Below the pieces are notes generated by a model. It worked only from the letters and a program-made list of their open reading frames with translations. It was not told the DNA's origin and searched no databases. Positions 39,101 to 41,693 of a DNA stretch of 64,000 nucleotides are shown here, piece after piece. The stretch is taken from NCBI RefSeq assembly GCF_900113015.1, contig NZ_FONV01000009.1, forward strand, positions 62,001-126,000. The letters run 5' to 3'. Position 1 is the first letter of the stretch. Every line of letters begins with the position of its first letter. The position numbers were made by a program, and so were the translations under genes. This stretch comes from Actinoplanes philippinensis. Its GTDB lineage: Bacteria > Actinomycetota > Actinomycetes > Mycobacteriales > Micromonosporaceae.

Positions 39101-39919
39101 CTAGCCCGACACACCCGGCGACCGGTGCTCCCGCATCCACGCCGTCGCGAAATCCACCACCGCCCGCTGCGACATCAACCGCGACACCGCCGCACCCACC
39201 AGCCCCACCGACACCGGCCCCACCGCATCGAACGCCACACCGATCTCCTCGAAATCCGAGGAATCACTCGCCGGCGCCGTCCACGTCACCCACCGCGCCC
39301 TACCGTCCGGATCACGCACCGCCGCACCGTTGACGTCCATCCGCGGCCGCAGCTGACGCGTCTCCGACAGATGCATCGACGTGTTGTTGCCGTGCCCACA
39401 CCCGATCAGCAGCACCTTGCCGTCCACCCGGTACACCGCACCCAACGGCGACCCGTCACCCAACTCGTCCTCCACCGGATGACCAGCGACGATCTCCGCC
39501 GCCCGCGCACCCACCGCCGCGAACGACACCTGCGGATGACCACTGCGCACCGCCCCCGGCCACGTCCGCACCACCTCCGGCAGCACCCCCACCCACCGGC
39601 TCGGCGACAACACCCGATCGAACCCCGGATTCTCGTCCCGGATCACCGGCCACCACGACTGCGGCACCGGCGGATTGCTCCACCCCGCCGGATCCGAGTT
39701 GTACCCCGTGTGCGTCGGCACCACCAGCGTCCCCGCCGGCCCCAGCACCTCCAGCAACGCATGCACCACCGACTGCACATGCCCCACCACGAACCCCACC
39801 GACCGCAATGCCGAATGCACCAGCACCACATCACCGGCCGCCAACCCCAACCGCCGCAGATCGACAACCAGCGAACCGACCGTGTACGGCACATCCTGAG
39901 CGGGACTCTCCTGAATCAC
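39101..39919 (-). CDS. AAC(3)-family aminoglycoside N-acetyltransferase-like protein
   Basis: A 272-residue protein. Family landmarks: DVVLVHSALRSVGFVVGH, LVVPTHTGYNSDPAGW, SVGARAAEIV region (FAAVGARAAEIVAGH), SPLGAVYRVDGKVLLIGCGHGNNTSMHLSE. The His/Glu pair near GNNTSMHLSE is the catalytic site. Actinobacterial chromosomal members may be housekeeping acyltransferases or confer resistance; which is not known. GTG 39919 has a GGAG-like site inside the reading frame region and is the best start; no ATG is in frame nearby. Confidence 0.87.
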   Translation of the reverse strand: MIQESPAQDVPYTVGSLVVDLRRLGLAAGDVVLVHSALRSVGFVVGHVQSVVHALLEVLGPAGTLVVPTHTGYNSDPAGWSNPPVPQSWWPVIRDENPGFDRVLSPSRWVGVLPEVVRTWPGAVRSGHPQVSFAAVGARAAEIVAGHPVEDELGDGSPLGAVYRVDGKVLLIGCGHGNNTSMHLSETRQLRPRMDVNGAAVRDPDGRARWVTWTAPASDSSDFEEIGVAFDAVGPVSVGLVGAAVSRLMSQRAVVDFATAWMREHRSPGVSG

Positions 39920-40122
39920 CGCGCAAGTATCCCGGCGCCCCCACCCGGTGTCGCCCCAATAACCACCCCACCGGTCCCGCCTGCCCCACACCCGCACCGC
40001 CGGCACCGAAGCCGTCCGCCGAACTCGGCCAGCCGTAACGGCCGCTCAACGGTGGGCCGGGTGCACGACTCGGGCACCCACACCGGCTCAGCTGCGGTCA
40101 CGAAACGACGGTAAGAACGACA
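39920..40122. other. Intergenic stretch
   Basis: About 200 bases without a supported gene, C/A-rich on the plus strand. Nothing recognisable apart from the terminator that follows. Confidence 0.4.
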
Positions 40123-40350: not shown

Positions 40351-41298
40351 TCACCCCAACTCACTCAACACCCGATTAGTCCGATTAGCCTGAACCGCCG
40401 CGCGCTGCTGCTCCGCCGTCACCTCGATGTACGACTGCGACGTCGCCAACGACGCATGCCCCAGCAACCGCATGATCTCCGACGCGTTCGCCCCGTCCTC
40501 CGCCAACCGCGTCGCGAACGTATGCCGCAACGCATGCAACTGCGCACCCCGCGGCACCCGATCCCCGACACCCGCCCGCCGATAACACGACCGCACCAGA
40601 TACTGCAAACCACCCCGCTGCAACGCCGCCCCGCGCCGATCCACCAGCAGGGGAGCAGTGGCGCCCACCCGCCCGAACCGCACCCGCCGGCTGTCCAGAT
40701 ACCGCGACACCGCCGCATCCAGCCCCGACTCGATCGGCACCGTCCGCGGCCGCCCACCCTTGCCCGCCACCTCGACCCGCCGCTCACCGGGCCGGCCACT
40801 CACCGAACCGACCCGCAACGCCAGCATCTCCGACAACCGCAGACCAGCACACAACGCCAACGCCAGCACCACCACATCCCGCTCCGGCCACGGATCACGC
40901 TGCGTGTCATCCGCCGTGCTCACCGCCCGCAACAACACCTCCGGCGTGTCCTCACCCTTCAACGGCTTCGGCACCAGCACCGACTGCCGCGGCTTGTCCA
41001 CCGCCGACATCGGATTCCCCGGAATCACCTGCTCAGTGACCAGAAACGTGAAGAACGCATTCCACGACGACCAGGCCCGCGACACACTCGCGGGGGAGCG
41101 GGACGCGGCGAAACGCGCAAAAGCGCCGCGCAGCACGCGAGGGGAGAGGTCACTCACCGTTAGCGGGGCGGGCTCGACAAGCTGCACCACGAGATGCAGA
41201 TCGCGACGGTACGCCGAAAGCGTGTGCACCGAGGGTTTACGAGTGGCCCGCGCCGCCAGAAACTCGTCGATCAACTCAGCGATTGACAGATCGTGCAT
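40351..41298 (-). CDS. Tyrosine recombinase (XerC/XerD-like)
   Basis: A 315-residue site-specific recombinase. The SAM-like N-terminal core-binding domain has LIDEFLAARATRKPSVHTLSAY and RAWSSWNAFFTFLV. The catalytic domain has the full set: Arg154 (GLRLSEML), Lys180 (KGGRPR), His255 and Arg258 (HALRHTFATRL), His281 (LLGHASLATSQ) and nucleophile Tyr290. Length and motifs are those of XerC/XerD, not of phage integrases. Its start codon lies inside a dif-like core (41290-41317), and a full dif candidate lies 370 bases upstream. It could be a terminus-resolving recombinase, an unpaired XerS/XerH-like enzyme, or belong to a dif-using element. Confidence 0.93.
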   Translation of the reverse strand: MHDLSIAELIDEFLAARATRKPSVHTLSAYRRDLHLVVQLVEPAPLTVSDLSPRVLRGAFARFAASRSPASVSRAWSSWNAFFTFLVTEQVIPGNPMSAVDKPRQSVLVPKPLKGEDTPEVLLRAVSTADDTQRDPWPERDVVVLALALCAGLRLSEMLALRVGSVSGRPGERRVEVAGKGGRPRTVPIESGLDAAVSRYLDSRRVRFGRVGATAPLLVDRRGAALQRGGLQYLVRSCYRRAGVGDRVPRGAQLHALRHTFATRLAEDGANASEIMRLLGHASLATSQSYIEVTAEQQRAAVQANRTNRVLSELG

Positions 41299-41317
41299 AA
41301 GGCATATTATGCACGAC
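41290..41317. other. Dif-like recombination core overlapping the recombinase start codon
   Basis: Arms ATCGTGCATAA (41290-41300) and TTATGCACGAC (41307-41317) flank a 6-base centre GGCATA. The inner CATAA/TTATG pattern with a 6-base centre is the layout of Xer/dif core sites, and the arms are perfectly symmetrical over 9 bp. The recombinase ATG (41298-41296) is inside the left arm. Alternative: an ordinary operator palindrome. Confidence 0.6.
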
Positions 41318-41665
41318 TTTGCGACGTTCGTCCTGGTCCACGCATGATCATGACTGTGAGTGCCTGTTATGAACCCAAAGTCCGGTTCGCCTGCCGTCGC
41401 GGACCGGATCGTCAGGCCTCGACGCCGGGGCAGGGGCACCCGCCACCAACCTGCAGACCCTTGTCCGGGGTAGGCCTTCCGTCCGCGGCATCACACAGGT
41501 GCAGACCTCACGCCGCCCGTGTCGGCGACTCCGGCAGTCCGTCGCCCAGGCAGGCAATTCAGCACGATCCAACGCCCCTGAAGGCTCAGCCAGGTTCGCT
41601 CGGCCCGCGAGCCGTCGCCCTGAGAGGACACTTCGCACTCTTGGGGGAAGCCCCTCCCAGGCTCT

Positions 41666-41693
41666 ACTTGACATAATATAGATTATCGACCTG
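41666..41693 (-). other. dif: Candidate chromosomal dif site
   Basis: Read on the minus strand: XerC arm CAGGTCGATAA, centre TCTATA, XerD arm TTATGTCAAGT. The XerD arm matches E. coli dif (TTATGTTAAAT) at 9 of 11 positions and the centre (TGTATA) at 5 of 6; the XerC arm keeps the invariant inner ATAA. It lies in a gene-poor, locally AT-rich spot next to a Xer-like recombinase gene. Confidence 0.75.

Follow-up and report, generated by a model that had tools for sequence, protein, structure and literature searches.

An extra Xer-like recombinase gene with its own target-like site near dif suggests a second separation or site-specific recombination module in Actinoplanes philippinensis and many other actinobacteria

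Why would a chromosome that carries dif, the site where joined sister chromosomes are normally resolved, also carry another Xer-like recombinase gene with a dif-like site of its own a few hundred bases away? The question is raised by a 64,000-nucleotide stretch of Actinoplanes philippinensis (contig NZ_FONV01000009.1, positions 62,001 to 126,000; G000:C35:62001-126000, hereafter the window) from a genome of 10.4 Mb. A tyrosine recombinase gene, here called xerX (product XerX), begins inside a 28-bp palindrome in which two 11-bp arms flank 6 bp (11-6-11), and dif lies upstream. An extra recombinase gene with its own target-like site recurs near dif in many actinobacteria, which suggests a second module for chromosome separation or site-specific recombination. 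We give a probability of roughly 0.57 to the reading, made from sequence, that XerX and the palindrome form a two-part Xer module, a recombinase and its cognate 28-bp core site at the terminus. The role of the module would probably be dimer resolution, which fits best because the site is unique, its overlap is asymmetric, the catalytic residues are intact, the locus lies at the terminus, and there are relatives on plasmids. According to the excerpt of PMC5357621, dimer resolution usually relies on one system per chromosome, either XerC/XerD at dif or a single-recombinase substitute.

The initial annotation had described an 11-6-11 symmetry at 41290-41317 holding the xerX start codon, and the sequence bears this out. 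The palindrome reads ATCGTGCATAA-GGCATA-TTATGCACGAC, and its 6-bp overlap is asymmetric. The pattern TGCATAA-N6-TTATGCA, with up to three mismatches, occurs at one place in the window against 0.06 expected from shuffled sequences. At 0 mismatches it has a single place in the genome; at up to two mismatches it has three, the same count as a reversed-pattern control. Among other ATAA-type palindromes in 1.455 Mb of background sequence, none reached 9/11 symmetry and four reached at least 7/11.

The palindrome is kept in orthologous loci. A finder that tolerated two substitutions in the ten inner bases located a start-codon palindrome in 74 of 77 named actinobacterial loci (L104-L180). It missed L165, whose contig begins inside the gene, and two Kineococcus loci. 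A 78th locus, L181 (25% identity, outside the group), was excluded from all counts. In the Micromonosporaceae the palindrome lies at the ATG in all 74 informative named loci and in the window, in some of them in degenerate form; these 75 loci hold 55 unique 28-mers. Conservation above 0.7 bit begins at position -2, spans to the far edge of the site and continues at scattered coding positions only. No position between -60 and -3 exceeds 0.7 bit, and upstream conservation is limited to the 28-bp site. Four arm positions show two-sided changes. Among 81 unique sites with a symmetry of at least 8/11 (11 of 116 sites were dropped, with lower symmetry or none), pair 3 is C-G in 27 and G-C in 33, pair 4 is A-T in 30, C-G in 29 and G-C in 1, pair 6 is G-C in 76 and A-T in 5, and pair 7 is C-G in 71 and G-C in 7. 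The orthologues thus retain the symmetry, whose loss had been named beforehand as a result that would overturn the proposal.

XerX combines a SAM-like domain (PF02899) with a catalytic domain (PF00589) and the residues R-K-H-R-H-Y, as in the simple-type tyrosine recombinase superfamily. The catalytic residues are R157, K183, H258, R261, H284 and Y293, numbered on the protein as extracted (P0001, with three extra residues before the Met), and they are invariant in 66 of 66 aligned homologues. P0001 scores 172.7 bits against the NCBIfam XerC equivalog (cut-off 335.15), 151.6 against XerD (cut-off 329.6) and 68.5 against XerS (cut-off 267), below the cut-off in each case. Two other proteins of the genome come far closer. 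L002 reaches 328.1 against the XerD cut-off of 329.6 and, with 371.6, is over the PRK00283 cut-off of 279; L001 reaches 300.4 against the XerC cut-off of 335.15 and, with 279.1, stands at that of PRK00283. The L001 protein (contig G000:C21) carries a long Ala/Gly/Glu-rich insertion that splits its profile match into two stretches. By these scores XerC and XerD both seem to be present in the genome. In a tree of 72 of the 91 extracted proteins, XerX belongs to a clade (45 rows, support 100/100) that excludes XerC, XerD and a fourth Xer-like protein and in which plasmid-borne forms make up one subclade (98/85). The joins of L248, L249, L250 and L251 in this tree may be long-branch artefacts. Against their provisional labels, L264 and L265 (labelled XerC) fell with XerD, and L278 and L279 (labelled XerD) with XerC. 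A separate alignment used 43 of 79 sequences (the window and L104-L181). The closest solved sequences are XerD (1a0p) and a Xer protein (4a8e), and the predicted model of XerX matches the folds of XerA, XerD, XerH, lambda Int and Cre with TM-scores of about 0.4-0.7 (mean pLDDT 82.7, below 50 in segment 286-293, which holds the tyrosine). By profile and tree, XerX is neither XerC nor XerD, and the suggestion of a further, third Xer in this genome holds.

The neighbouring dif has 0 mismatches to the actinobacterial form, with 0 expected in the window. It is the sole 0-mismatch copy in the genome, and one other place requires three mismatches. Its form matches the Frankia alni dif given in the excerpt of PMC3025954. 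The initial annotation had placed a dif candidate about 370 bases upstream; a canonical dif is indeed present, but the gap, measured edge to edge, is 348 bp. Across the 75 Micromonosporaceae loci the gap has a median of 475 bp and a range of 250-2647 bp, and it is below 700 bp in 57. The dif pattern was found in 190 of 250 family genomes and never twice in one. All sampled genomes of the family genera g34 and g39 were without the dif pattern (up to one mismatch) and without XerX (E≤1e-45), and their dif may be diverged or absent. Since GC skew in the window was too noisy, we used the distance to dnaA to locate the terminus. In 50 single-contig genomes, picked from the family and genus match listings and mostly with lengths rounded to 0.1 Mb, the gene lies at a median of 0.486 of the genome length from dnaA, and 49 of them fall at 0.467-0.500, opposite dnaA.

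Gene and site also occur together. One high-identity orthologue (72-94%) was found in each of 35 other genomes of the genus, of which xerX is a core gene; further same-genus matches have at most 36% identity among the matches listed. At the family level a match at E≤1e-45 was found in 167 of 250 genomes and 20 of 44 genera, and in the class at E≤1e-32 in 37 of 394 genomes, 28 of them in family f31. Named relatives include Actinoplanes, Paractinoplanes, Couchioplanes, Micromonospora, Plantactinospora and Kineococcus. The 250 family genomes divide into 140 with gene and exact site, 27 with the gene only, 3 with the site only and 80 with neither (Fisher 1.4e-37, ignoring relatedness). In the three with the site only, contig ends cut the gene right after its start. 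The corresponding counts for dif-bearing family genomes are 138, 18, 3 and 31. We inspected 11 of the 27 genomes with the gene and no exact site: four have 8/11 sites (G071, G108, G128, G149) and G266 a 7/11 site, the contig of G254 ends at dif, and the sites of G002, G011, G027, G033 and G034 (loci L133, L123, L117, L114 and L127) deviate from the exact pattern. Conversely, in 12 of the 31 genomes that have dif but lack both gene and site, no ATAA-type palindrome was found within about 5 kb on each side of dif or up to the contig end. In the class, 30 of 394 genomes have the exact site, one copy each, and 29 of the 30 also have a gene homologue; in the exception, G310, dif and the site lie on a 4.9-kb contig without the gene. 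The exact site is present in 28 of the 30 class genomes with the closest homologues (E≤1e-80). No genome among the 250 of the family and the 394 of the class has more than one exact site.

The site is not tied to the start codon. In the 19 loci of family f31 with dif (L220-L238), an ATAA-N6-TTAT palindrome lies 301-950 bp from dif in every case, between dif and the gene, with 8-11 of the 11 arm positions symmetric. The gene starts there 0.7-7.6 kb from dif on either side, and the site either precedes the gene start by 0.3-6.9 kb or lies 2.7-3.3 kb off on its 3' side. In all three genomes of g35, a genus of the window's own family, an 8/11 site is separated from dif by 0.8-1.8 kb and the gene start by 1.6-3.3 kb. 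Because the palindrome stands between dif and gene in these 19 and 3 loci, overlap with the start codon is not the essence of the arrangement. The palindrome is a site in its own right and no promoter accident, since in f31 it lies off the ATG yet near dif. Among order-level relatives, a palindrome whose arms are perfect over 10 bp precedes the aligned start in L074 and L075, with dif 560 and 370 bp upstream, and L076 has a palindrome with no dif within 16 kb. Seven further f31 loci (L239-L245) showed no dif in the stretch examined. Five of them (L239, L241, L242, L243, L244) have 10-11/11 sites between 92 bp and 7.4 kb upstream of the gene, L245 has an 8/11 site, and the site of L240 reaches only 6/11, with an exact copy on another contig of the same genome. 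Two more distant f31 homologues (L248, L250; about 34% identity) are accompanied by ATCCAGGATAA-TATGTA-TTATCCTGGAT and a 9/11 copy. On f8 contigs the palindromes score 8/11 (L246) and 9/11 (L247). The plasmid-size f8 contig of L246 (G615:C2) carries an exact palindrome at G615:C2:102505, about 10 kb from its XerX homologue, while a second, degenerate palindrome lies 90 bp upstream of that homologue. The loci L239-L245, L248 and L250 belong to the f31 genera g115, g161, g168, g174 and g185, which keep XerX or the 34% homologue and in which no dif was found at up to two mismatches. Those genomes might rely on XerX alone, have a diverged dif, or possess a linear chromosome.

Where the palindrome does cover the gene start, it may have a second function. 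Its ATG is in frame with xerX in 75 of 75 loci. The open frame of the window could reach an upstream GTG at 41439, and in 26 of the 75 loci an in-frame stop precedes any upstream start. The palindrome ATG is therefore the best-supported start. No Shine-Dalgarno-like word precedes it in any of the 75 loci, and the other arm holds a -10-like hexamer (CATAAT in 69, TATAAT in 4, TATATT in 1, GATAAT in 1). Leaderless mRNAs are common in actinobacteria, and the spacing from hexamer to ATG fits a leaderless xerX transcript. The initial annotation's view that binding would cover the promoter applies to most Micromonosporaceae examined, in which the hexamer and the ATG both lie inside the site. Because one site forms the -10-like region and the start, XerX bound there would probably repress its own gene. 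This cannot be its general role, since the f31 and g35 sites stand away from the gene start.

Distant homologues of XerX are found on 54 PLSDB plasmid records from Mycobacterium, Rhodococcus, Mycolicibacterium and Prescottella, with 36-40% identity among the 40 matches listed. Six of eight plasmids, all six from Rhodococcus, carry an 11-6-11 palindrome (10-11/11) with changed arms 81-1015 bp upstream. A phage origin was considered and rejected: XerX had no match in a phage collection at E≤1e-20 and none in one pattern-based scan of viral contigs.

Several other explanations deserve weight. The palindrome could be an operator only, through which XerX represses its own leaderless promoter while acting at another place such as dif, as partner or opponent of XerC/XerD. 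That the site holds the -10-like hexamer and the ATG in the window and all 74 named Micromonosporaceae loci speaks for this, as do the ATAA/TTAT inner arms common to XerX and XerC/D sites. At least the distant copies in f31 and g35, the latter about 0.8-1.5 kb off, cannot be operators of the gene, however, and a 6-bp spacer between dif-like arms is what a recombinase core site requires. We regard this explanation as unlikely, though it is the strongest of the rivals. Less probable still is an accessory or decoy site associated with dif and bound by XerC/XerD or another terminus factor. Proximity to dif in most loci and an inner arm in common with dif would suit such a site, but the palindrome is missing from the 12 dif regions of XerX-less genomes, its presence tracks the gene among dif-bearing family genomes, and the plasmid relatives have equivalent palindromes with changed arms.

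The pair might instead be what is left, an integrase and its attachment site, of an integrative element once inserted near dif. Some mobile elements are known to exploit Xer systems (PMC5357621, excerpt), and relatives of XerX do occur on plasmids. Against this stand a high-identity orthologue in every same-genus genome searched, invariant catalytic residues and a site conserved over several families; there is no second exact copy in any genome searched, and neither the phage collection at E≤1e-20 nor one pattern-based scan of viral contigs gave a match. We consider this improbable. Hardly any weight is left for recombination between palindrome and dif, whether to excise or invert what lies between them (the segment of 41.3-41.7 kb in the initial annotation) or to switch the expression of xerX. 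Two dif-like sites 348 bp apart invite the idea, but in none of the 75 loci does the 6-bp overlap of the palindrome equal that of dif in either orientation, two or more positions being different each time, which makes recombination between them unlikely, and the distance varies from 250 to 2647 bp and is 5.4 kb in one genome. Palindrome and dif have 8-mers in common that are G+C-rich words only, and a cross-locus comparison of the 348-bp interval found no block common to the loci.

Several observations weigh against a cognate core site for XerX at the terminus. The two Mycolicibacterium plasmids examined showed no site, nor did the surroundings of L249 and L251, and the Kineococcus loci L177 and L178 (dif at 637 and 1212 bp) have weak sites upstream of the gene. 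The start-codon overlap is not family-wide: all three g35 genomes have their best site (8/11) about 0.8-1.5 kb away from where the gene begins. Symmetry is below 8/11 in 8 of the 74 Micromonosporaceae palindromes. Covariation within this family alone is modest (pair 3, 24/2000 shuffles; pair 2, 150/2000), with none at pair 1 and hardly any variation at the remaining pairs. The gene lies at 0.384 from dnaA in one of the 50 genomes. Nor is the distance to dif fixed: one genome of genus g32 (L295) keeps its 11/11 palindrome at the gene start, but both stand 5.4 kb away from dif. No gene was found at E≤1e-45 in 83 of 250 family genomes, three of which are contig-end cuts only, and xerX is thus dispensable. 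With XerC-like and XerD-like genes and a canonical dif present, there is no obvious need for a second resolution system.

From sequence we infer how a XerX module would work, any part for FtsK included. The module would be kept once per chromosome in the terminus, mostly near dif. Each site would take up two XerX protomers, one on each 11-bp arm, and two such sites, on sister chromosomes or plasmid copies, would synapse. Strand exchange across the asymmetric 6-bp overlap would then convert a dimer to monomers, alongside XerC/XerD acting at dif. In loci whose palindrome includes the xerX start, the bound recombinase would shut off its own promoter.

The features of the locus are collected in Table 1. 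The downstream neighbour of xerX (window 39101-40006, minus strand) presumably encodes an aminoglycoside N(3)-acetyltransferase, judging from its translation. The gene for the fourth Xer-like protein (L004, L077) lies outside the window at G000:C35:132653-133438, about 29 kb from xerX. Its 316-aa frame scores 153 bits against the XerD model and forms its own clade in the tree. It is found near xerX in many same-genus genomes, about 5-36 kb apart among the matches listed, and no ATAA-type palindrome was present in the 900 bp upstream of it in the eight loci examined.

Table 1. Features of the xerX-dif region, in window coordinates.
Feature	Position	Strand	Remarks
xerX, Xer-like tyrosine recombinase gene	40351..41298	-	315 aa; intact
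28-bp 11-6-11 palindrome, proposed cognate core site of XerX	41290..41317	.	
xerX start codon ATG, within inner arm of palindrome	41296..41298	-	
-10-like hexamer CATAAT in other palindrome arm	41306..41311	-	putative promoter; placement as for a leaderless transcript
Interval between palindrome and dif	41318..41665	.	348 bp
Chromosomal dif, presumed XerC/XerD site	41666..41693	+	ACTTGACATAA-TATAGA-TTATCGACCTG

Known single-recombinase systems offer the closest comparison. XerS/difSL of streptococci and lactococci and XerH/difH of epsilonproteobacteria likewise have a single tyrosine recombinase gene beside its own core site, a likeness noted in the initial annotation. As in those systems, xerX is linked to one dif-like site that is unique and, by the distance between gene and dnaA, in the terminus. 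XerS and XerH, however, replace XerC/XerD and are the only Xer system of their chromosomes, whereas XerX coexists with XerC-like and XerD-like genes and dif, its site has a 6-bp overlap and near-perfect palindromic arms, and the protein is closer to the XerC/XerD profiles than to XerS. In XerL/dif of Legionellales, as described in the excerpt of PMC9765430, a single Xer is again specific to a lineage and has its dif site close to the terminus, and one genus has an orthologue on a plasmid; XerL is the single-recombinase system of its host, whereas XerX is an addition. The 28-bp 11-6-11 site with ATAA/TTAT inner arms resembles the actinobacterial XerC/XerD-dif system (Kono 2011, PMC3025954, excerpt), but XerX misses both NCBIfam cut-offs by far, and it has a symmetric site rather than a two-protein heterosite. 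The recombinase modules of large plasmids are similar in that the six Rhodococcus plasmids join XerX relatives to 11-6-11 palindromes, and they differ in that the window copy is chromosomal, at the terminus and adjoining dif. The initial annotation knew of no close parallel to the two-site layout. We found no description of an extra dif-adjacent Xer in Micromonosporaceae among the papers listed by our searches, which covered few subscription papers, but the layout itself is widespread in actinobacteria.

It is conceivable, at a little less than even odds, that several actinobacterial families run two independent terminus systems, XerC/XerD at dif and XerX at a palindrome usually a few hundred bases off, the latter derived from or shared with plasmid dimer-resolution modules and possibly the sole system in some f31 genera without a dif match. 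A conserved second recombinase with its own unique site near dif would raise the questions of whether the two systems are under common FtsK control and why the neighbourhood of dif is occupied. It would also bear on the exchange of such modules between plasmids and chromosomes, and on whether XerX stands in for dif in genomes without a dif match. For work in actinomycetes, XerX and its site would be a compact pair of recombinase and target, possibly a self-limiting one.
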